Both the position numbers and the translations under genes were made by a program. A stretch of DNA of 64,000 bases, taken from positions 1 through 64,000 of IMG/VR virus record IMGVR_UViG_3300042430_000133. One strand, written 5' to 3'. The notes under the pieces were generated by a model, which was not told the DNA's origin, searched no databases, and saw only the letters and a program-made list of their open reading frames with translations. Of the stretch, positions 21,879 to 43,851 are shown piece by piece. This stretch comes from a virus. The first letter of the stretch is position 1, and each line of letters starts with the position of its first letter.

Positions 21879-23318
21879 TTATTTCTTTAAACTGTTAAGC
21901 AAATTCTTCAATTTTGACCCTTGAACATCTACTACAACTTTCTTGTTTTCAGGCTCTAATATCTCACCTGTACTTTGGTCAATAATAGGTTCTGTTGATT
22001 GTAGTGTAGATTGTGGTTTTAATTTATTCATAATATCAATAGCACTAGGTTGTGGTTTATAACTATCTTCACCGTCACCACCATTGTCACTAATACGCAT
22101 AGTTTCAATATTATACTCTAAATCAATTTTCATGCCTACACCCGTTGAACTACGACTTTTCATACATTGAATCTGATATTTACCTCGCTCTCGCATACTA
22201 CGACTTGTAAAGATACCAAACACATTATCTGCTGTATTAATCTTACTGATACCACCAGCAATGTGACTGTGGTCAAATTCAATCTCATCTACCGCACTAC
22301 GATTCAACTGACTAGCTGTAACCATCAGTATACCCATCTCTTTTGAAAGATTGCGTAATTCTTCAGCAACATACTTGTCTTTGATAAACTGATCGTTGGG
22401 ATTGACTTTAACAGAGACCGGCATTACTAGATCCAAATAGTCAATCATCACAAAGTCAATTCTAATCCCTGTTTGAATCTGCACTTCTTTTAAATATGCA
22501 CGGATATCATTTACATTACTTTGTGCAGGTAATCCTTTAACACGATATTGTCCTGCTTTCTTACCAACCATCTTAACCTTAAGTTCAGTTGATCCAATAT
22601 CTTTCCGAATATCTCTTGTACCCATATTAGTTAACATTGCATCTGTCCGCAAACTAGTTAATTCTTCACTCAATTCTAATGTAACATATACTCCGCTCAT
22701 CCCTGCTTGCAGCCAGTTCAATGCTATGTTCATCATTACCAATGACTTACCTGAACCCGAACCACCTGCAAAAATATTCAATTCACCACGACTCATGCCA
22801 CCATAGAGTATCTTATCCATCTGTGGCCAGCCTGTGCTAACCTGTCCACCACTGTTAAAGTATTTGTTAATACGTCCTGCAGGATCAGCAAAGTAATCTG
22901 TACCCATGTCTTTCTGTAAACTGATTTGTACTGCATCTTTAATTAGTTTCTCAACAGGACCAAAATCACCTTTCTCAAGTAAGTCAGCACTCTTTAGTAT
23001 TGCTCTTTCTAATTCTTGTCGTTTAGTAAAACTTTCAAATTCTTCAAAGAACCAATCATAATGCCCTTGACTTAATTCAGGTATAACTTCAAGATCCATA
23101 CCAGTTAGTGCTTTAATTTGTGTGCTATCTGGAAGTACATTATATTTTGTTGTATGTTCTTTAAATAATTCTGCTACCGGCCGCAATGATTTATCAAAGT
23201 TTTCAGAGTTCATAATATTCATAACTCTAGTATACAACTCGGCATTTGTAATCATCATTTGCAAAAACAACTTTTGCAATTCTACACTATATTCTTTATT
23301 ATCCGATTGTTTTCTCAA
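21879..23318 (-). CDS. 41: Replicative DNA helicase (gp41/DnaB family)
   Basis: 479 aa hexameric 5'-3' helicase of the replication fork. The N-terminal helical domain (1-130) contacts primase. The RecA-like core has Walker A AGGSGSGKS (184-192), the Walker B-like VMIDYLDLV, the sensor segment TASQLNRSA and the KSRSSTG arginine/lysine finger region near the end. This order and length match T4 gp41 (475 aa). It overlaps the primase gene by 20 bases, as expected for a primosome operon. The C-terminal tail (VVVDVQGSKLKNLLNSLKK) may be a partner-binding peptide. Confidence 0.9.
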   Translation of the reverse strand: MRKQSDNKEYSVELQKLFLQMMITNAELYTRVMNIMNSENFDKSLRPVAELFKEHTTKYNVLPDSTQIKALTGMDLEVIPELSQGHYDWFFEEFESFTKRQELERAILKSADLLEKGDFGPVEKLIKDAVQISLQKDMGTDYFADPAGRINKYFNSGGQVSTGWPQMDKILYGGMSRGELNIFAGGSGSGKSLVMMNIALNWLQAGMSGVYVTLELSEELTSLRTDAMLTNMGTRDIRKDIGSTELKVKMVGKKAGQYRVKGLPAQSNVNDIRAYLKEVQIQTGIRIDFVMIDYLDLVMPVSVKVNPNDQFIKDKYVAEELRNLSKEMGILMVTASQLNRSAVDEIEFDHSHIAGGISKINTADNVFGIFTSRSMRERGKYQIQCMKSRSSTGVGMKIDLEYNIETMRISDNGGDGEDSYKPQPSAIDIMNKLKPQSTLQSTEPIIDQSTGEILEPENKKVVVDVQGSKLKNLLNSLKK

Positions 23319-24276
23319 TTTTCTTCCTCTGTATTTCTATTTTTATTTTACTCATCGTAGCACTTTGCAAGATGCTTAATAGAGTTGGCAACTTGCCATA
23401 TCTTACAACAGCATCGTTGACATCTTTAATATCCGATTCCCAATTAGGTAAACTAACGCTATAGCCTAATTCTAATGCTCTATCACATATCTTTAAACCT
23501 GTCTTATCTCTATCAGGTACTACAATAATTTGTTTATTTAATGACGCAATTAATTGTGCTTGTTCATTGCTTATATCATCATGCATGATCGCTATACCAT
23601 CAATACTTAATGCATCAAATATGCCTTCAGTCAATATACATACTTGCCATTCAGGTTTCTGTATATCAATATTGAACACATATCCTGGTTGTTGTTCATT
23701 AATATATTTTGGTATTTTGTTGTCTAAGAATCTGCTAGTGTGACCGACGATTTTATTCTTATAAGTGTAGGGAATTATTATTCTATTTGCGTAACGACCT
23801 TTTAGATTAGGTGTTATTAAGAACGGATACTCATTATAATTTATCCCCCTTGACTGCACATAATCAATGTACACTTTGTGTAATGGATTATTTTCATCAA
23901 TTAATTCACCTTCAGGTAATTCGTGATCCTTGAATTTGATTTTTATTTTAGTTTTCTTTTGAATTACTATATCAAGTAAATCTTTTTGCTGTAAGCTTTC
24001 TAAACTCCACTTACCTATTTGTGTATCATCAATTCCACACCATAACAATAGTTGTTTTGTTTTATAGCTGATGCTTCTACCTAATACAAAGTTACATTTG
24101 TATCCACAGTTAAAACAATGCATAGACCAGTTAGTTTGTCCGTCAAACTTAATACCACCTCGCATTCTGCGATCAGGTTTGTGACCAAGATGACTACAAC
24201 AGATAGCATTAAAGCTATGCCATCCACTAGTTGTTGTTTTTTTCTTGCCGGGAATTATAGATAAAATATCAAACAT
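23299..24276 (-). CDS. 61: DNA primase (gp61-like)
   Basis: 325 aa, close to T4 gp61 (342). The N-terminal zinc-binding region has C26/C27-x-H29 and C54-x2-C57-x3-C61. The TOPRIM-type core has E in CILTEGIFDALS and the D-x-D of IVVPDRDKTG. An RIIIPY segment precedes it, as in phage and mitochondrial primases. It makes RNA primers with the gp41 helicase encoded next. A TTGATA-N17-TATACT promoter ends seven bases from the ATG and there is no Shine-Dalgarno sequence, so a leaderless mRNA is likely. Confidence 0.85.
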   Translation of the reverse strand: MFDILSIIPGKKKTTTSGWHSFNAICCSHLGHKPDRRMRGGIKFDGQTNWSMHCFNCGYKCNFVLGRSISYKTKQLLLWCGIDDTQIGKWSLESLQQKDLLDIVIQKKTKIKIKFKDHELPEGELIDENNPLHKVYIDYVQSRGINYNEYPFLITPNLKGRYANRIIIPYTYKNKIVGHTSRFLDNKIPKYINEQQPGYVFNIDIQKPEWQVCILTEGIFDALSIDGIAIMHDDISNEQAQLIASLNKQIIVVPDRDKTGLKICDRALELGYSVSLPNWESDIKDVNDAVVRYGKLPTLLSILQSATMSKIKIEIQRKKIEKTIG

Positions 24277-24325: not shown

Positions 24326-25015
24326 TTATCTTACCAATATATTGGTTACTGCGCCGGAATTACTTTCAAATTGCATTCTGACGTACGGATGATATCCTTG
24401 AACCACATACCCTTTGGTATCAGCAACATTATCATATGTATCGGTTGTGATAGGATACCAATCTCCATCTACAATAGTAGAGCCTTCAATAGCAATATTT
24501 CCATAATAATCAATATATTGTGCTTGTAGAGTTAATATAGGATTATTATTAGTAGAAATAACACTAGTGTAATATATTAAGTTACTATCACTATTTCCAT
24601 TAGGGGAAGTGTTTGGGAAACTTTGTCCTGTAGGTATACTAACAGAGGCAGAAGGAATAAAGCTAGGTAACACACTATTAACAATATTCAGATCACCACG
24701 TGCACCTGCATTTTGGTCAACAAATACAGGATAGTCAAACTCTCCTACTGGTATTTCTAGTGAATAATAACATTTTTGTGTATCAATATTTTCTATATCT
24801 GCTGGACCTATAATCAATGCGGCTATACCGGTTGCAGGTAATTGTAATGTTAATGCTTTTTGTAATAATACTGCTCCGCCGGTATAGTTAATAATCCTAC
24901 ATGTAATAGATTTACCAGTTATGTCTACCGGTTTTTGTTCCTGATTTAAGAACTGGAACTGTATTTGATTGTCTACACCTTTGTGTAGGGTCAGTGGTTT
25001 GGCATACTGAGGCAT
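24326..25015 (-). CDS. Baseplate/fibre protein with BppU-like N-terminal domain
   Basis: 229 aa from the ATG at 25015, which has AAGGAG upstream; a GTG at 25093 would add 26 unlikely residues. Residues 1-90 (KPLTLHKGVDNQIQFQFLNQ, VDITGKSITCRIINYTGG, ATGIAALIIGPADIENID, CYYSLEI) match the N-terminal domain of BppU-type baseplate upper proteins and similar virion-anchoring modules. The C-terminal part is beta-rich (LTLQAQYIDYYGNIAIEGST, VRMQFESNSGAVTNILVR), resembling a small receptor or oligomerisation domain. It is likely part of the baseplate periphery. A weak late box (CTAAATA) is at 25114. Confidence 0.55.
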   Translation of the reverse strand: MPQYAKPLTLHKGVDNQIQFQFLNQEQKPVDITGKSITCRIINYTGGAVLLQKALTLQLPATGIAALIIGPADIENIDTQKCYYSLEIPVGEFDYPVFVDQNAGARGDLNIVNSVLPSFIPSASVSIPTGQSFPNTSPNGNSDSNLIYYTSVISTNNNPILTLQAQYIDYYGNIAIEGSTIVDGDWYPITTDTYDNVADTKGYVVQGYHPYVRMQFESNSGAVTNILVR

Positions 25016-25113
25016 ATAACTCCTTGGCGAATATCCTGATAATAATACAACAATCTGTCTTTGCGTATAAATGAAAACTTGGGTTGAGTACACAAATGTA
25101 ATCTCCTATTGTG

Positions 25114-25188: not shown

Positions 25189-25569
25189 ATGATACAAAAC
25201 GAGTTTTTTAAACGCCTAAGCGAAAATCACCCTTTCATAACCATTTGTTCCTACGCAAATCAGGATTATGTAGGAATTGTCCAGAACCGAGACGATATTG
25301 TCACCACTATATACGATTACGGTGCTATAATAGACAATGATGTTAAAGAGAAATTCCTAGAACTAGGAGATGTTTGGTGGTGGGAATCTAACAGATTAAT
25401 ACCTATTAATCTATTTTTAAAAGACGAATGGACTATATTCAAGCCCTATATAAGAACTTTTAACAACAAAAGTCTCACAATACTACATGGTCCTGTTTGT
25501 AGTATCATTGAATTAAACAAACGTAGAAGCAAACGCCGTAGCATTACACTAGTAAAACGATTACCCTAA
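25189..25569 (+). CDS. Conserved phage protein of unknown function
   Basis: 126 aa from ATG 25189. It is soluble, with a conserved-looking block: VGIVQNRDDIVTTIYDYG, KFLELGDVWWWESNRLIPINLFLKDEW, then LTILHGPVCSIIEL and a strongly basic C-terminus (NKRRSKRRSITLVKR). The tryptophan-rich motif and basic tail are typical of a widespread but uncharacterised family in aquatic T4-like phages. The basic tail suggests nucleic-acid contact. It is alone on the + strand, under its own late box, and converges with and overlaps the Pol III-like gene by nine bases. Confidence 0.6.
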   Translation: MIQNEFFKRLSENHPFITICSYANQDYVGIVQNRDDIVTTIYDYGAIIDNDVKEKFLELGDVWWWESNRLIPINLFLKDEWTIFKPYIRTFNNKSLTILHGPVCSIIELNKRRSKRRSITLVKRLP

Positions 25570-26124
25570 TAAGTTCATATGGACTACAACCAATTGTGAA
25601 TAGGCTAGGCTATGACTTTTCTTAAACACATATCCATCAGTTCCCTTATCCCACACAGTTTTAGCAATCTCACTCCATCTTTCACCGATCAAATGCTTTT
25701 TACCAGGACGAATAACAGCTAAAAACATAGCTAATCTTGGGATACTATCTACTGGTTCTGGCATCTTTTGTAAATTGTAGAACTGATTATTCAAGTGAAT
25801 CAACTTCTCTACAAATACAGGATCTTTTAATTTACTCCAATCAGGTTCATGCATTAACTCTATAAGATGTGCTTCATTACGTACCTGACTATAAACGTGT
25901 ACATTCAATAAATCTAATTTAAAATAGCCACGCTTTTCTGCCGCTGTATAATCAATACTTGCTATATTGTTTACTGGATCATACGGTACATCTGTAATAT
26001 ATACACCCGTAGCATGATTACGTATAGGCTTAACATTACGCATTGCCGCTCTTGTGTGAGGAATTAACTTTAATAAATCATCTCTTGATCCGAAGTCAAT
26101 GTCAATATCACTATCTATTCTCAT
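25561..26124 (-). CDS. Miniature DNA polymerase III alpha (C-family)-like protein
   Basis: 187 aa. Motifs of bacterial DnaE appear in the right order: SDIDIDF (5-11; PDxDxDF palm motif with the catalytic D-x-D), HATGVYI (37-43; HAGGV), YFKLDLLNVHV (67-77; VKFDFLGL with the third catalytic Asp at 71), AVIRPG (136-141; RPG) and FKKSHSLAYSQLV (167-179; FNKSHAxAY). Spacings are strongly shortened against DnaE (about 1160 aa), leaving a palm/finger remnant. It overlaps the DnaQ/DexA-like exonuclease gene by ATGA, an arrangement like alpha-epsilon. Polymerase activity is not proven; it may be a nucleotidyltransferase or a regulator derived from Pol III. Confidence 0.6.
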   Translation of the reverse strand: MRIDSDIDIDFGSRDDLLKLIPHTRAAMRNVKPIRNHATGVYITDVPYDPVNNIASIDYTAAEKRGYFKLDLLNVHVYSQVRNEAHLIELMHEPDWSKLKDPVFVEKLIHLNNQFYNLQKMPEPVDSIPRLAMFLAVIRPGKKHLIGERWSEIAKTVWDKGTDGYVFKKSHSLAYSQLVVVHMNLLG

Positions 26125-26684
26125 CTTGCTGGTGCTACCAATTCTGCTTTAATTAACTTAGTATACGCTTTTTGCACTACAATAGCTTGTCTTTCGGCAT
26201 CTTCTACTGCTTTGTGACTTGTGGTGTGACCACCGTCTTTAAGTTTTACACCCGTAATATCGTAAATAGTTCTAGTATCTCTAATAGTCCAGAAAGGCCA
26301 GGGAATAGGATTAGGCTTGTTGCTTGTTTGTCTAAATGCATTTTCCATTACAACTACGTCAAAGCTCGCACCATTGCTCCAAACAGCATCACGATTCCAA
26401 CAGAACTTATAAAGGGTCTCCATGCACTCTTTAAATGGCACACGTCCCCCGTCTCCCATAGCTTCTTCAAGTGCTTCAGGGCTCTGCTCACTCCACCATC
26501 GTAATGTGTCCTCATTAATACTCCTATTATAAATCTCTGTTTGATCCTCAACTGTAGGTCGTAATTCTAATCGTTCAACTACACCTTGACCTTTAGGATC
26601 AAACCTTACTGCGCCAATAGTTAAGATAACACAATCAGGTGTTGTATCTAAACTTTCAATATCTATCATAATGTGATTTGCCAT
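26121..26684 (-). CDS. dexA: DEDDh 3'-5' exonuclease (DexA/DnaQ-like)
   Basis: 187 aa. Exo I motif IMIDIESLD gives D8 and E10, Exo II has D109 in SNGASFD, and Exo III has H157 and D162 in TSHKAVEDAERQA, the DEDDh set. The LRWWSEQSPEA segment and WSNGASFDVVVMENAFR match T4 DexA-type exonucleases, which degrade single-stranded DNA 3' to 5'. The coding sequence overlaps the Pol III-like gene by four bases, so co-translation is likely. The enzyme could proofread or act on recombination ends. A GGCG ribosome-binding site precedes the ATG, two bases from the upstream stop. Confidence 0.8.
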   Translation of the reverse strand: MANHIMIDIESLDTTPDCVILTIGAVRFDPKGQGVVERLELRPTVEDQTEIYNRSINEDTLRWWSEQSPEALEEAMGDGGRVPFKECMETLYKFCWNRDAVWSNGASFDVVVMENAFRQTSNKPNPIPWPFWTIRDTRTIYDITGVKLKDGGHTTSHKAVEDAERQAIVVQKAYTKLIKAELVAPAR

Positions 26685-26685
26685 A

Positions 26686-27045
26686 TTACGCCTGTAATGT
26701 TTTCCAAATATATTGTTTCTCTAAATAGTCCTGAAACTTTATTGCTTCAGATTCACTATTAAATACTACACCTTTGATATCATACATATCTTCTAGGTAT
26801 CTAGCATAGTCCCCGTTAACATCTTGTGCCCAAGTAAGTGCTGTAATCCACATAACATCTATTTCTCCACCACTAAGTACGCCGGACATTATTGCTATAC
26901 CAACTTCGTAACTACCGATATCGGCAAACAACACAGCTAATAGTCTTTTCTTTGTATCAAACTGCCGGATACTCTGCCATTTAGGCCATGATACTAGAAA
27001 TTTATTGTTTTGTACAGTGGTTATGGGAAAGGGTGTATTGTTCAT
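26686..27045 (-). CDS. Small early-type protein, possible divergent LRW-family member
   Basis: 119 aa. Central residues read LLAVLFADIGSYEVGIAIMSG, and WAQDVNGDYARYLEDMYDIKG precedes the C-terminal GVVFNSESEAIKFQDYLEKQYIWKTLQA. The latter has the F-N-x-E-x-E-A-x-x-F pattern shared with the downstream tandem array, but lacks the terminal LRW. It overlaps its upstream neighbour by ATGA. No enzymatic motif is visible. Membership of the array family is tentative and function is unknown. Confidence 0.5.
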   Translation of the reverse strand: MNNTPFPITTVQNNKFLVSWPKWQSIRQFDTKKRLLAVLFADIGSYEVGIAIMSGVLSGGEIDVMWITALTWAQDVNGDYARYLEDMYDIKGVVFNSESEAIKFQDYLEKQYIWKTLQA

Positions 27046-27308
27046 TGGAATTTTAATAAAAATATTAGGTACTTCTTTTCGTCAACAATCTCATAACCAT
27101 CTGTTATGTTACCATTAACTATGTTCATTCTTATACCATATTGTCCTATAAGGTAATCTTCAAAATCGTATGCGTCAAATTCTTTGTTCTGTGCCATATA
27201 TTCTTTACGTACAAGTTTCAATGCCGCCCAATAATCCCATCGTTTTTTACGTTGTTCTATTAATGGATCATCGTCATCGTAATCTTGTATTTTTGGAATT
27301 GATACCAT
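27042..27308 (-). CDS. LRW-array protein, divergent (ends FLLKFQ)
   Basis: 88 aa from ATG 27308; a GTG nine bases further upstream is less likely. It is acidic/basic mixed (YDDDDPLIEQRKKRWDYWAALKLVRKEY) and ends DGYEIVDEKKYLIFLLKFQ, the E-K-x-Y-x-x-F-x-L-K-F form of the array's C-terminal box. The stop of the previous member and this ATG share bases (TGATG). The previous gene's C-terminal codons TTG AGG TGG supply a GAGGTGG ribosome-binding site. Function unknown. Confidence 0.6.
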   Translation of the reverse strand: MVSIPKIQDYDDDDPLIEQRKKRWDYWAALKLVRKEYMAQNKEFDAYDFEDYLIGQYGIRMNIVNGNITDGYEIVDEKKYLIFLLKFQ

Positions 27309-27550
27309 CAACTCCACCTCAACGTAAACATAATGTAATCTTTCTCATATCTAAACTTAAAGCTAACTTTATTTGTATCAGTAACACACCATCTACTATG
27401 TCGTCTGTATTTGCCTACATTACTTACTAACCATTGTGTCATCTCATTGTATTTGTCAATGTGTTCTGCTCTAACTGAACATTCATACCATCCTGGCTTA
27501 GTATATGCCCAACCAAGTTTGTGGTCATAATGCTCATCTATTATTGCCAT
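27308..27550 (-). CDS. LRW-array protein (ends FTLRWS)
   Basis: 80 aa. It has aromatic- and histidine-rich segments (YDHKLGWAYTKPGWYECSVRAEHIDKYNEMTQWLVSNVGKY) and the C-terminal box FRYEKDYIMFTLRWS. The ATG lies inside the preceding gene's AGA TGG (Arg-Trp) codons, so the genes overlap by ten bases. The pattern 'W...polar pair...F-x-(D/E)-K-D-x-x-x-F-x-L-R-W' is shared with at least three tandem neighbours and with 54223-54474. Function unknown; a small nucleic-acid or protein-binding module is possible. Confidence 0.6.
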   Translation of the reverse strand: MAIIDEHYDHKLGWAYTKPGWYECSVRAEHIDKYNEMTQWLVSNVGKYRRHSRWCVTDTNKVSFKFRYEKDYIMFTLRWS

Positions 27551-27858
27551 CTAAGTAGAAACCATTCTAAATCTTTTTTGTCACGGAACCAAAACTTAGA
27601 ATTATTCATATACCATCTCATGTCAGGTGTCCATACTCCGTCGTGTGCTGTAGGACCAAATGTTTCTACCATCCATGCTTCCATTTCTTTCCATTTAACA
27701 ATATTAATTGGTTGTACAGTCAAATACGGTTGACCATAAACCGTACCCTCGCTAAAGTCAAAAGAATTCCATCCTAATGCAGACATTAACACCATTGCGT
27801 CAATATCTTTAGCCATTTGATCGGCTACTTGATTAATAATTTCTTCTGTTATATTCAT
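27541..27858 (-). CDS. LRW-array protein (ends FLLRWQ)
   Basis: 105 aa from ATG 27858, which overlaps the upstream stop as ATGA. The N-terminal half is helical (ITEEIINQVADQMAKDIDAMVLMSALGW). The C-terminal part has WKEMEAWMVETFGPTAHDG, then MRWYMNNSKFWFRDKKDLEWFLLRWQ, the clearest version of the shared box. The ribosome-binding site GAGGTGG is formed by the LRW codons of the upstream gene. Function unknown. Confidence 0.65.
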   Translation of the reverse strand: MNITEEIINQVADQMAKDIDAMVLMSALGWNSFDFSEGTVYGQPYLTVQPINIVKWKEMEAWMVETFGPTAHDGVWTPDMRWYMNNSKFWFRDKKDLEWFLLRWQ

Positions 27859-28070
27859 CCCCACCTCAACGTAAAATAGCTAGCATTACTATCATTGTAA
27901 AAAGTAAATCTTGCATGTCGTTTCACAATAGGATCATGGCTAAAATTGTCATACTTCTCTTGGTAGTAAGCATAGTCAAAATCAACACCCTGAATATAAC
28001 CCATGTTTCGTAACTCATGTCCTATTTCCATAGTTCTCTTAGCAGTAATATATAGGATAACATCAGCCAC
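27855..28070 (-). CDS. LRW-array protein (ends FTLRWG)
   Basis: 71 aa, starting at a GTG at 28070 with GGGGA upstream. It reads ADVILYITAKRTMEIGHELRNMGYIQGVDFDYAYYQEKYDN and ends ARFTFYNDSNASYFTLRWG, fitting the family box. The stop overlaps the next ATG. No alternative in-frame ATG gives a better start. Function unknown. Confidence 0.55.
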   Translation of the reverse strand: MADVILYITAKRTMEIGHELRNMGYIQGVDFDYAYYQEKYDNFSHDPIVKRHARFTFYNDSNASYFTLRWG

Positions 28071-28071
28071 A

Positions 28072-28269
28072 TTATCCCCATCTTAACTCAAAATGGATAG
28101 CATCTTTCTCATCTACAAAATAAAAATCCATATAATTTTCTGTTGGATGTGTTGTATACTTATCACCTGGTAATCCAAAATGTTCTACCGCCCAAGCACA
28201 GGTTTCATTCCATGTAGGTATATCATGAAATGGTTGCCATGATATACGAACTCTAGTACCCGCCTGCAT
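28072..28269 (-). CDS. LRW-array protein (ends FELRWG)
   Basis: 65 aa. It contains TRVRISWQPFHDIPTWNETCAWAVEHFGLPGD and ends NYMDFYFVDEKDAIHFELRWG, a full match to the shared C-terminal box F-x-x-E-K-D-A-x-x-F-x-L-R-W. The W-N-E-x-x-x-W-(A/M)-V-E-x-F-G segment also recurs in the 27541-27858 protein, showing that the two are homologous along most of their length. It overlaps the Zn-finger gene by 17 bases. Function unknown. Confidence 0.65.
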   Translation of the reverse strand: MQAGTRVRISWQPFHDIPTWNETCAWAVEHFGLPGDKYTTHPTENYMDFYFVDEKDAIHFELRWG

Positions 28270-30039: not shown

Positions 30040-31497
30040 TTATCTATATGTCAATTTTTCTACGTCAAACGGGTAATTGGCCTCTTTATAAAAAGCCTTA
30101 CGTTGAGTCAAATGCCGTTTAGCAAATTTACAACTACTGGTTATGTCGTAGATTTGTACATGGTCTTTATCTTCTGCTTTACGAATTCCTCTACCGATGC
30201 TTTGGATAACACGGACGAATGATTTTCCAGGTTCAATGAGAACCAGATTAAAAATCCTAGGTATGTTGATACCAACAGCAGCCACACCATATGTTGCCAC
30301 AATAATTTTATTACTTGCGGTTGCAACTTCGTCATATTCTTCTTTCCTTTCATTCATATTAGTAGCACCACTAACAAACACGCTACCGGGTAATCTACTG
30401 ACAATCTCTTTTCCTGCATTCACCCTATCAACAAGGATCAATGTATTACCTGTATCATTAATACCGCTAATTAAACTAGCTATCTTATCTAATCTTTCAC
30501 TATCTTCTAGTAAATGTTTTAATTCGCTTTGATAGTTAGTAAACTCTTTACCATCTTGTAATTGCATAATGTTAACGTGACAACGTGCTAGTACACCCTG
30601 ATCTTGTAATTCACTTGCACTTAGTTTACCAATCACATTACCCAAACTTACATAGATGCTTTGTGCTTCAAACTTAGCTTTAGGAATAGTTCCTGTTAAT
30701 CCCCAACGAATGGGCACTTTGCTGAATACTCCTGTAAGCAATGTTTTTAATGCATCTGCTTTAGCCATGTGTACTTCATCAACCATTACACACACTACAC
30801 CTTCAATAAAGTCTCCGATCTCAACTTCTGCCTTACCTGCTTTTGTTTTCTTAAGCATATTGTTAAGACTTTGCCAGGTACAGATAGTATGTGTCTTATT
30901 GTATTCTTTACGATCACCGAAGTATACACCCACATCTAAACCTAGATTGATATAATCTGCTTCTGTTTGTGTTACTAATGACTTATTCGGAACGATGACA
31001 ATACTACGACCATACTTCTCAACGCTATTAGATAGTGCGGCTGTCATCAATGTTTTGCCTGCACCAGTTGCAATTTCTTGTAGTGATTGAGGGTTCTCTA
31101 AGAAGTTATTAACAAGTTCAATTTGATAATCACGTAGTTCAACTGGAGTACCTTCTTTAGGATGACCTTTAGGCCAGTTCTTATGTTTGAATGTAGCCTC
31201 GGACACTTTGTCAAATGTAAAGGTTGTTGTGTAATCTCTTAAATCATCTAGCTCAATATCATATCCCGCATTGTCTAGGTAAGGAAGTATTTCAGGAAGT
31301 AGATTGATGTAAGTACTACCCGCTAAACTGAAATAGCTAACCTTACCATTCCATCTACCTAGTCTTACTGCAGGTAGATAACGTGCTCCGGGTATTTCGT
31401 ACTCAAACATTTTCATCAGTGCTTTGCGCTCTGATAGTTCAAGTCCCTCTATTTTTACATTCACCTCGTCTTTGACGATTATTTTACATTGTTTCAT
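30040..31497 (-). CDS. uvsW: UvsW-like superfamily 2 helicase
   Basis: 485 aa, near T4 UvsW (587 including a longer N-terminus). The N-terminal region (1-125) is a small double-strand-binding domain with GRWNGKVSYF. Helicase motifs are: motif I ATGAGKT (143-149), the DEVH box in VMVDEVHMAKAD, motif III GLTGTIPK, a YGVAAVGINIPR segment and motif VI QSIGRGIRK. T4 UvsW unwinds recombination and R-loop intermediates and helps switch replication modes. It overlaps the upstream gene by 14 bases. Confidence 0.9.
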   Translation of the reverse strand: MKQCKIIVKDEVNVKIEGLELSERKALMKMFEYEIPGARYLPAVRLGRWNGKVSYFSLAGSTYINLLPEILPYLDNAGYDIELDDLRDYTTTFTFDKVSEATFKHKNWPKGHPKEGTPVELRDYQIELVNNFLENPQSLQEIATGAGKTLMTAALSNSVEKYGRSIVIVPNKSLVTQTEADYINLGLDVGVYFGDRKEYNKTHTICTWQSLNNMLKKTKAGKAEVEIGDFIEGVVCVMVDEVHMAKADALKTLLTGVFSKVPIRWGLTGTIPKAKFEAQSIYVSLGNVIGKLSASELQDQGVLARCHVNIMQLQDGKEFTNYQSELKHLLEDSERLDKIASLISGINDTGNTLILVDRVNAGKEIVSRLPGSVFVSGATNMNERKEEYDEVATASNKIIVATYGVAAVGINIPRIFNLVLIEPGKSFVRVIQSIGRGIRKAEDKDHVQIYDITSSCKFAKRHLTQRKAFYKEANYPFDVEKLTYR

Positions 31498-40396: not shown

Positions 40397-41692
40397 TTAA
40401 ATGTATGGTAGCCCGATAATTTTATCCAACATACGTTCATATGTTTTATCTAGGCTTTCATTAAACAATTCTTGTTGAACTGGCTGTTCCCATAATTTCA
40501 TTTTAACATTATCTAACCAAAGTCTAACTTGTTCAGATGTTAATGGAGTCTTATCATTACCTAAATTATATAACAAAGGAACATATTGTTCTACTGTATC
40601 AGCTATTTGTTTATCGCTATAATCTTTTTCTGCTAAATCCTTAGCAAATCTTCCCTTAAACATAGCAAACAGTCCAGGCAAATGTTTAGTAATCCATTCA
40701 TTGTAATTAGGATTACGATATTGTTTAGACGGTTTAATATCATAACCTTCATTTATACTTTCTTGTACATTAGCTGAACTGGGCATGTTCTGTTGTTTTT
40801 GATTATTCACAAGCCAAGATATATCTGCTACCTTTTTATCTGGTGCTGAATTTGAGCTAGTCATTTTTTCAATATTCTGATTAATAAAATCTAAACTTTG
40901 ACTAATTTCAACCTTCATTTTACTAATATCTTCCGCATCTTGCATAATGCCGGCTCTTAACTCTCTTGATATCTCAAGTTCTTTATTCATGTCTGTACCA
41001 AACTTTTCAAGTTTATCAGAGGTAATTTTTTTATAATCACTGAAACTAGTCTTATATTCTTTAAATCTTAGTTCTTTAGCAGCCAATCTAGCTCTAGCAT
41101 CTTTGAGACCTCTTGCAACTTCATTATAATTAACTGTTGCATCATTTTCAATATCTCTTACCATATCTTGTAACTTCTTAACATCTTCTTTATCAGTTGA
41201 TTTATTTGTTTGCAACATTTTAACTTGAGAATTTAGTTCATTATATACTTTGGGATCCATTCCTGGTTTAGTTTTTAATGCTTCTAAATCTTTTTGAATT
41301 TTTTCTAATTCATCAGCACTAGCTTTTGCTTGTTGTTGTGTACCAGAACTACCGGTAGTTAACATACCACTAAGCTGTTTTAATCTAGCAACTTCTTTGT
41401 CAGTTTCAACAGATTGTTGTTCAAAATTTTGTAGTTCTTGACCCAAATCATTTACTACACTTCTTAGCCGTTCATTTTCACGTTTTTGAGTATCTATTAA
41501 ACTATTTTGCTTTGAATCAGTTGTTTCCTGATTTTGCATTTCATCTGCAATTAATAATATCATTGCCTGTTCTGAGGAATAGCCAGGATATTTGTTTCTA
41601 GCTCTATATATTAAATCTTTGTCAACCGGCAAAGCCCTAACAGAACCATCATCAGTTCTTGGGTTTTCATTTAATAATGATGCTATTTTCAT
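40397..41692 (-). CDS. Long coiled-coil virion/core protein with capsid-targeting-like leader
   Basis: 431 aa. The N-terminus MKIASLLNEN has an L-x-E site like prohead protease targets. Residues 50-280 are almost continuous coiled coil (QKRENERLRSVVNDLGQELQNFEQQ, LEKIQKDLEALKT, VKKLQDMVRDIEN). A second possible cleavage site QESINEGYD is near residue 320. The C-terminal 110 residues (YNEWITKHLPGLFAMFKGRFAKDL, LTSEQVRLWLDNVKMKLWEQP) form a separate helical domain. It overlaps the next upstream gene by ATGA. Coiled-coil architecture and putative cleavage sites suggest a prohead core or packaged internal protein; this is inference. Confidence 0.5.
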   Translation of the reverse strand: MKIASLLNENPRTDDGSVRALPVDKDLIYRARNKYPGYSSEQAMILLIADEMQNQETTDSKQNSLIDTQKRENERLRSVVNDLGQELQNFEQQSVETDKEVARLKQLSGMLTTGSSGTQQQAKASADELEKIQKDLEALKTKPGMDPKVYNELNSQVKMLQTNKSTDKEDVKKLQDMVRDIENDATVNYNEVARGLKDARARLAAKELRFKEYKTSFSDYKKITSDKLEKFGTDMNKELEISRELRAGIMQDAEDISKMKVEISQSLDFINQNIEKMTSSNSAPDKKVADISWLVNNQKQQNMPSSANVQESINEGYDIKPSKQYRNPNYNEWITKHLPGLFAMFKGRFAKDLAEKDYSDKQIADTVEQYVPLLYNLGNDKTPLTSEQVRLWLDNVKMKLWEQPVQQELFNESLDKTYERMLDKIIGLPYI

Positions 41693-43851
41693 TTTCTAAT
41701 TCCAGCAATATTTAATATTCTTGCTAAGTCATCTGAACCTTCAGCTACTGTTTCATTAGTTAACGGTGTATCTAATTTCTTAACAGGAGGTTTTGGAGTA
41801 GGATAATATGCAGATTTAGCACGTTTATCTGTACCCTTAATTTTAGGATTATCTACCCTAGGACTTACATGCTTCCATGGGTCAAGAGTATCTTTATCTT
41901 CGCCTTCACCAACTAGATCACCAATCGTTGCCGGCTTATTTGCTTTAGGACCTTTGTTACGCCATTGTCCTGCTTCACCCGTAGCATAGTCACCGGCGAA
42001 CTCATCTTCAGATATAGGTTCTTCTTTATCGCTATAATTAGCACGGATATTTTGCATTTTCTTTTCACTAGCATGGTCTTGTCCAGCTTTACGTAATGCA
42101 TCCATACCTTTTTTGCCATACTTCTTAATACCAAAAGATGCTTGTAATGCGCTTTCATCAACTTCATCTTCTTCAATAGTATTCATACGTTTCTTCAATG
42201 CAGACATACCAGCAGGACTAGTCATATTTTTCTCATCGGCTTTATCTAAATCTTGTTTAGTGACTTTCCAATCACCACCTTTTTCTTTACGATGAACTGC
42301 AGGCGTATTGATTTTCTGATCGGCTTGTTGTGCTGGATCTAACGCTTCTTCCATACTCATCAAATCTGATTCTTTCAAACCATTTTTTTGTAATATATTA
42401 GATAGTTGATATCTTATGCTTGTAACCATTTGCCTTGTGGGACTATCCATTTGTCCTTTAGATTGCAATTGTCCCAATTGGTCAATTAATTTTTTAAGTT
42501 CTTGTGAGTCATCATATGGAATTTTTAAGCTAGGTACTCGGTTGATATCGTAGCCAAACATTCTTGCTTCATCAACTGGCTTATCTTTTGGTTCAGGCTT
42601 CTTACCAGTTTGTGGAACACCTGCTGATTTTTGTAAATCTCTAATTAGGTCTTCTTCACTACCGCCACCTAATTTGTCAAATACTTTACTTCCAACTTTC
42701 TTAACGGTATCTAAGATGCCCTCATCTAACTCATCCTCTTCAGGTATTGCACCTGGATTACTTGACTGGGTATCTGATTCTTCTAAATCAAGTGAATCTA
42801 AATTGTCTTTATCAGTCTTTACATTATGATCCAATGTTTCTGCACCAGGGGCTTCAGTTAAACTATCAGCCCATTCGCTTAATTCATTAACTTCTTTCAT
42901 CTCAGCTACTTTTTTATGTAACTTACTCAATATTGGCATTACACTTTCAATACGTGGATCTAATGTTTCTTGTACAAACAACTCATTTAAATTGTTTTCT
43001 TCTGCCTCATCTTCCATTAATGGAGGAATATATGATTCAAAGTACGCATTGTATCCACGTGCGCCACGCATCTTACTTAATGATTCTCTTAAACTTTGAT
43101 AATGATTAATACCTTCATTAACTAATTGTTGTGCTGATTCGTTGAATTGATTATTACGTGTAGCACGAACAAATCCTGCCATCTTTTGATATTCTTCACA
43201 TAAGCTACCAATATGATTCCAACGGTCATCATGCGGTAAACCACCTTCAGCTAAATGACGGGCATATATCTGAGCAATACCTGGCTTAGTTGTAGGAGCA
43301 AGAATTCTTTCACCCTGTGTATTCTCTAAGAAGATACGGTTTACATTACGATAACGTTGTTCACCTTCTTCAATTTGACGACTATGTTCAATAACAATCT
43401 TAACTGTTGGAATATTGTCGTTATAACTAGCTTTCTTACCCATTGGATAGTAGCCTTCTGATATTCTTTCTTGCTTTTTCATATGTTCCCTTTTTGCCAT
43501 ATCATATTTTAAATGGTCTCTGTTTTTAACTTCAAAACTCAATTGGTGTTGCTGTGAGAAACGTTTTAGATGATTCAATAGTTTATACCACGAATCATCA
43601 CCGCCGTTATTTTCTTTTTCGCTGTTAGCAACATCATCACCAAAATAGATTACTAACTTGTGTAATCCATCAATAGATGCTGTTACTGTACCGTATTCTT
43701 CTCCGTCTTTAGTAAACTTAAACTGAAAGACTTCTGCTTCTTCTGGGACTGGAATTTCCTTACCCGAAGTATCCAATAGTGTAGGGGCATACCCTCTACT
43801 ACGTAATAGCTCAAATAATGAGCGGTTGATTGATTCTTGATTTTTAGCCAT
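41689..43851 (-). CDS. Large head-associated protein with multiple prohead-protease-like sites
   Basis: 720 aa. An N-terminal domain (1-130) with FQFKFTKDGEEYGTVTASIDGLHKLVIYFGDD is followed by a conserved-looking segment KKQERISEGYYPMGKKASY and IEEGEQRYRNVNRIFLENTQGERILAPTTKPGIAQIYARHLAEGG. The rest is charged and disordered, with repeated I/L/V-x-E-(G/A/D) sites: RISEG, LDEGI, TVAEG, LVGEG. T4 gp21 cuts at I/L-x-E. Located after terminase, it may be a core or internal protein processed in the head. A late box is only four bases from the ATG and there is no Shine-Dalgarno, predicting a leaderless mRNA. Confidence 0.55.
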   Translation of the reverse strand: MAKNQESINRSLFELLRSRGYAPTLLDTSGKEIPVPEEAEVFQFKFTKDGEEYGTVTASIDGLHKLVIYFGDDVANSEKENNGGDDSWYKLLNHLKRFSQQHQLSFEVKNRDHLKYDMAKREHMKKQERISEGYYPMGKKASYNDNIPTVKIVIEHSRQIEEGEQRYRNVNRIFLENTQGERILAPTTKPGIAQIYARHLAEGGLPHDDRWNHIGSLCEEYQKMAGFVRATRNNQFNESAQQLVNEGINHYQSLRESLSKMRGARGYNAYFESYIPPLMEDEAEENNLNELFVQETLDPRIESVMPILSKLHKKVAEMKEVNELSEWADSLTEAPGAETLDHNVKTDKDNLDSLDLEESDTQSSNPGAIPEEDELDEGILDTVKKVGSKVFDKLGGGSEEDLIRDLQKSAGVPQTGKKPEPKDKPVDEARMFGYDINRVPSLKIPYDDSQELKKLIDQLGQLQSKGQMDSPTRQMVTSIRYQLSNILQKNGLKESDLMSMEEALDPAQQADQKINTPAVHRKEKGGDWKVTKQDLDKADEKNMTSPAGMSALKKRMNTIEEDEVDESALQASFGIKKYGKKGMDALRKAGQDHASEKKMQNIRANYSDKEEPISEDEFAGDYATGEAGQWRNKGPKANKPATIGDLVGEGEDKDTLDPWKHVSPRVDNPKIKGTDKRAKSAYYPTPKPPVKKLDTPLTNETVAEGSDDLARILNIAGIRK

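Follow-up and report, generated by a model that had tools for sequence, protein, structure and literature searches.

The window analysed here is a 64,000-nucleotide stretch of viral DNA (positions 1 to 64,000 of IMG/VR record IMGVR_UViG_3300042430_000133), which carries on its minus strand a small gene for a protein of 187 residues with the motifs of C-family DNA polymerases, the family of the bacterial DNA polymerase III α subunit (Pol III α, DnaE). By four base pairs, an ATGA at 26121–26124, this gene overlaps an upstream open reading frame (ORF) that encodes an exonuclease, also of 187 residues, and its 3′ end runs into that of a convergent gene of the phrog_11637 family (Table 1). With good confidence, we identify the protein as one of two halves into which a Pol III-type palm has been split. 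It represents the metal-binding, C-terminal portion of a minimal nucleotidyltransferase of the Pol III α type that T4-like jumbo phages encode in two genes; we refer to it as half B and to its complement as half A. This reading is based on homology, a collinear split, the co-occurrence of both halves, purifying selection and invariant catalytic residues.

Table 1. Features of the window around half B. Residue numbers are those of half B; equivalents are those of E. coli DnaE.
Feature	Position	Strand	Remark
Half B of split minimal Pol III α	25561..26124	-	187 aa, PHROG 11778; Mg2+-binding palm half and short fingers remnant
DIDIDF, residues 6–11	26092..26109	-	D401, D403, D405 (metal ligands D401/D403)
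HATGVY, residues 37–42	25999..26016	-	H511, G514
KLDLLN, residues 69–74	25903..25920	-	K553, D555 (third metal ligand)
RPGK, residues 139–142	25699..25710	-	R639-P-G
FKKSHSLAY, residues 167–175	25600..25626	-	F756–Y764 (FNKSHSAAY)
3′–5′ exonuclease, Rv2179c/DexA type	26121..26684	-	PF16473 4e-34; phrog_255 6e-44
Tail-to-tail partner, phrog_11637, function unassigned	25189..25569	+	126 aa from ATG; 9-bp overlap with 3′ end of half B
Conserved-neighbourhood protein, phrog_1084	24326..25093	-	Weak match to virion structural family
DNA primase (Toprim; phrog_47)	23299..24276	-	Conserved neighbour
DnaB-like replicative helicase (phrog_19)	21879..23318	-	Conserved neighbour
UvsW-like helicase	30040..31497	-	Frequent upstream neighbour; named by homology to DEAD/DEAH helicase at equivalent place in phage CBB

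Homology to Pol III α and the complementary half

The motifs SDIDIDF (residues 5–11), HATGVYI (37–43), YFKLDLLN (67–74), RPG (139–141) and FKKSHSLAY (167–175) follow one another in half B, which bears out a preliminary description of the window, made from the sequence alone, of a protein with the C-family motifs in order. Among 93 distinct relatives, with identities down to about 40%, residues D8, D10, H37, G40, K69, D71, R139, P140, K142, F167, K168, H171 and Y175 are identical throughout, and D6 is an aspartate in each of the 91 sequences with a residue at that position; given this invariance, the motifs are not due to chance. Profile alignment places D6/D8/D10 on D401/D403/D405 of E. coli DnaE, and the other invariant residues include the equivalents of H511, G514, K553, D555, R639, F756, H760 and Y764. 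The catalytic aspartates named in the preliminary description (D6, D8 and D71, for D401, D403 and D555) are thus both present and conserved. D405 is a conserved feature of the DnaE groups, whereas PolC has an asparagine there (PMC3919608); its equivalent in half B, D10, is an aspartate in 93 of 93 relatives.

The proposed homology to DnaE/PolC held up in profile and structure comparisons. An independent alignment of 12 DnaE sequences was matched by half B in hhalign at E=3e-11 with a probability of 97%, and PHROG 11778, annotated as “DNA polymerase”, matches it at 2e-55. When its AlphaFold2 model, built from the family alignment (mean predicted local distance difference test score, pLDDT, of 91), was searched against PDB folds, the top nine matches were all Pol III α chains, from Taq, M. 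tuberculosis and E. coli, with a best E-value of 2.9e-3 and a probability of 0.99–1.00 in seven of the nine. Half B thus combines the aspartates of the C family with its pol-β-like palm fold. Profile methods are needed to see this: single-sequence searches of Pfam and the PDB with half B gave no match, and a profile search of PDB sequences returned DnaE matches that were collinear but non-significant.

Half B starts at about DnaE residue 399, some relatives beginning directly with MPDIDIDF, and is without the GRGS motif (R362, G363, S364) that binds the deoxynucleoside triphosphate (dNTP). The preliminary description had considered a minimal C-family palm; the palm fold and the homology stand, but the protein is not self-contained, as its relatives encode the GRGS segment in a second, distant gene. 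Searching the related records with the Pfam palm domain PF07733 retrieved this second ORF, of about 170 residues, which covers profile positions 16–98 only; 15 of the 19 records have such an ORF scoring above the curated threshold, and none of these ORFs is a full DnaE. Weak PF07733 matches outside both halves in G008, G010, G011 and G013 were read and look like chance. Half A ends in GVGRGSS...YxLDxxEFLK, where DnaE has FERFLN, just ahead of the residues that open half B. In 17 paired genomes, the GxGRGS motif of half A and the aspartates of half B are retained without exception.

Joined into an artificial construct, A and B align collinearly with DnaE residues 318–774 (5.7e-25, score 203.6), and the halves meet near residue 397 without overlapping. 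Half A alone scores 110.1, half B alone 93.3 and the reversed order B+A, used as a control, 111.7, showing that the order of the halves matters. The thumb, mid-fingers (Q687/E688, R709), PHP, clamp-binding and OB domains of DnaE fall into gaps of this alignment. To look for a third piece with the mid-fingers, we searched 14 records with PF17657; this picked up half B and one apparent chance match, and nothing over the cut-off.

The two halves also occur together. A search of 50,697 phage records detected half A in 89 of them and half B in 90, and their counts agree genus by genus, one Klebsiella record excepted; with half A of Pectobacterium phage CBB as the query, the count for A is 97, the extras being unannotated gut-phage fragments and others. 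The genes lie between about 11 kb (Slickus01) and more than 200 kb (Phosso) apart, with half B in a primase–helicase cluster and half A, in CBB, near a clamp-loader gene. An IMG/VR search with half B of phage SCTP-2 gave no relatives. A cellular origin was considered and rejected, since the eight contigs found in 84,980 genomes all belong to metagenome-assembled bins and are most likely binned phage contigs.

Possible function and alternative explanations

The ratio of nonsynonymous to synonymous substitution rates (dN/dS) of half B has a median of 0.08, an approximate value at a median dS of 1.4. Together with the invariant metal ligands, this favours activity over a decoy or a remnant, and we lean towards an A/B pair that is catalytically active. 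In the mechanism we propose, A and B would assemble non-covalently into one pol-β-like palm, presumably as a heterodimer, in which half A would place the triphosphate of the dNTP, half B would provide the catalytic aspartates and the C-terminal fingers remnant of B would touch the nucleotide or the template. Such a pair would most likely carry out short or accessory nucleotide addition beside the family-B replicase of the phage, as in gap filling, repair or primer handling. Given the loss of the thumb, the mid-fingers, R390, Q687/E688 and R709, an accessory, short-range nucleotide-adding enzyme appears likelier than a processive replicase.

The preliminary description had presumed that the phage has its own family-B polymerase. 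Such a gene is present in 15 of 15 related records longer than 110 kb (15 of the 19 related records), though not in the 70-kb record of the window. In three records (G004, NC_071039.1 and NC_042013.1) the family-B matches fall into two separate ORFs, so the replicase itself may be split there.

Several points weigh against the split-palm reading. The fold match is modest (E 2.9e-3, TM-score of about 0.5); R390, Q687/E688 and R709, all invariant in the DnaE set, are missing; and, with the thumb and mid-fingers also gone, the capacity for templated polymerisation may be lost. We consider templated DNA synthesis by the pair less likely than not. We found no biochemical or expression evidence for this split polymerase. 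Half A, moreover, was not found in the window's own record, a viral fragment of 70,148 bases, and its presence in this virus is predicted from relatives: in contigs G006 and G017, which carry a half B with about 88% identity to the window's, half A lies about 42–47 kb downstream, while the window has just 25.5 kb on that side, so that the record would end before the expected site.

The alternative that survives best is that A and B together retain the palm fold with its metal site but are no DNA polymerase, acting instead as a non-templated or protein- or RNA-directed nucleotidyltransferase, or as a regulatory subunit that depends on metal and serves the family-B replisome. We regard this as a tangible possibility, albeit not our preferred one: the thumb, most of the fingers and R390, Q687/E688 and R709 are gone while the metal ligands, K553, H511 and GRGS are retained, and a family-B replicase is already there; yet the fingers motifs RPG and FxKxHxxxY are invariant in half B, and a bare nucleotidyltransferase would have no obvious need of them.

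Less probable is a phage version of the α–ε pair, in which half B and the adjacent DexA-type exonuclease would form a polymerase and its proofreader. The upstream gene does encode an exonuclease, as had been described, and the two genes overlap in the window; the exonuclease also lies directly or closely upstream of half B in those loci of the window's clade that hold that side, and in the divergent record G004 a homologue is found about 0.8 kb from half A. However, no homologue of it is found upstream of half B in about 50 divergent loci, and 10 of 12 records from other clades, searched whole, have none. The adjacency is limited to the window's clade, and the α–ε pairing put forward in the preliminary description is, with the exonuclease elsewhere absent or, in G004, near half A, not a trait of the family. 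A looser functional link between exonuclease and polymerase is possible, since CBB has a DnaQ-type gene, annotated separately, at a distance of 4.4 kb on the upstream side of half B.

We consider it very unlikely that half B merely mimics host Pol III as an inactive decoy and so ties up the clamp or the proofreading subunit of the host, an option that the preliminary description had raised. While its homology to the host palm would suit this role, its metal ligands are invariant in all 93 sequences, it stops short of the DnaE clamp-binding region, and a second, always co-occurring gene with GRGS would be left unexplained. In E. coli Pol III α, ε binds the PHP domain, which half B does not span. 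The large deletions relative to DnaE might suggest a host dnaE that was acquired horizontally and is now decaying, but this is refuted by the low dN/dS and the co-occurrence data, half B being kept in jumbo phages of many hosts, with conserved synteny and an exactly complementary half A. PADLOC returned no match, and thus no support for a role in a defence system.

Neighbouring genes

We compared loci from the window's clade, RaK2-like and PA5oct-like phages, Atu_ph07, Phosso, SCTP-2 and one Vibrio jumbo phage. In these, half B is followed by the convergent phrog_11637 gene, a structural-type protein, the primase and the DnaB helicase, and UvsW is often found upstream. The phrog_11637 gene adjoins half B across the family and, with the copy in the window as the query, was detected in 85 phage records, all from genera with half B; we detected it only in phages with the split polymerase. 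The divergent copy of phage RAS14 is recognised by the profile (6e-7), while a candidate in Slickus01 is not. Weak Sm/Hfq-like matches from a fold search with phrog_11637 were not used.

Extra genes stand between half B and phrog_11637 in four loci (L009 1265–1933, L080 1301–1972, L118 6724–7443 and L124 3131–3838). Two of these loci appear by eye to carry an HNH-like endonuclease, of which the one tested had no Pfam match; the insertion in L118 is a PhyH dioxygenase (PF05721, 4e-19), and a similar gene is found in L124. The end of half B (25588–25626 in the window, and its counterpart in relatives) is mosaic among relatives of 82–90% identity, with SHSLAYSQL in some and AHAIAYANL in others, which suggests recombination near the site where endonuclease genes have inserted in some loci.

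Elsewhere on the minus strand of the window, five consecutive tiny genes at 27042–28269 encode proteins with a C-terminus of the type F-x-L-(R/K)-(W/F) (LLKFQ, FTLRWS, FLLRWQ, FTLRWG and FELRWG) and are probably tandem paralogues; the one protein tested had no PHROG match. An ORF for 720 residues at 41689–43851, on the same strand, has no PHROG match at E 0.01.

Relation to known polymerases

With bacterial DnaE, half B shares D401/D403/D405, H511, K553/D555, RPG, the FNKSHSAAY motif and the pol-β-like palm. It differs in size, with 187 residues against 1160, the one sixth rightly given in the preliminary description, and in being without the PHP, thumb, mid-fingers, clamp-binding and OB domains and the GRGS segment. 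The genome paper of phage CBB reported a truncated Pol III α of 172 residues, CBB_328 (PMC5259590). This gene (242974–243492, PF07733) is half A, which was thus recognised alone; half B of CBB is gp287 (209034–209684), for which the annotation reads “DNA polymerase” or “putative membrane protein”, and its phrog_11637 protein is gp288.

A second break at the same place is found in Cellulophaga phage phi13:1, where a full-size DnaE is divided into the adjacent genes gp38 and gp39 (L200 207–3807) and the break falls precisely on the joint of the jumbo-phage halves (E. coli 397|398; PF07733 4–98 | 100–260). There the halves are adjacent and the PHP domain, thumb, full fingers and HhH domain are retained. 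The first half has an extra tail of about 50 residues; an intein remnant suspected by eye at this joint finds no support in Pfam and is not claimed. Other phages have DnaE split elsewhere, between PHP and palm. The recurrence of the break site in the jumbo phages and in phi13:1 favours, without settling, fission over an ancestral relic as the origin of the A/B split. Tentatively, phrog_11637 might act as a third, obligate subunit or as an obligate regulator, so that the minimal polymerase would comprise three genes, and the separation of A from B might be a derived state, due to fission where the active-site loop breaks recurrently, and not, as proposed in 2021, the relic of an ancestor with two subunits.

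This split, minimal form of Pol III α is already in print: the main text of Iyer et al. (2021; PMC7824862) describes it in “group 2.2” jumbo phages and discusses what it may tell of the ancestral enzyme, for which it is taken as a model. The system has a stand-alone C-terminal Mg2+-binding half, as found here, and an N-terminal NTP-binding half from a distant gene, in genomes with a family-B polymerase; the latter two were seen here in relatives of the window's virus. The phages overlap, including Atu_ph07 and gammaproteobacterial jumbo phages, and against that text nothing fundamental differs, the window's clade adding a DexA-type exonuclease beside half B; our result is a confirmation, reached independently. 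Here parts of a bacterial replicase are put to an odd use: the cut through the C-family active site separates the dNTP-binding loop from the catalytic aspartates, and yet the pieces are kept under strong selection in many jumbo phages that already have a family-B replicase. For biochemists the pair is a C-family core of very small size, and it bears on the origin of the family. To the 2021 account, in whose main text we saw neither a tail-to-tail partner nor an exact joint, we add that joint, the near-complete co-occurrence of the halves, a neighbour gene detected only with the split polymerase, a lesser standing for the exonuclease link and, in phi13:1, an independent second break at this position.
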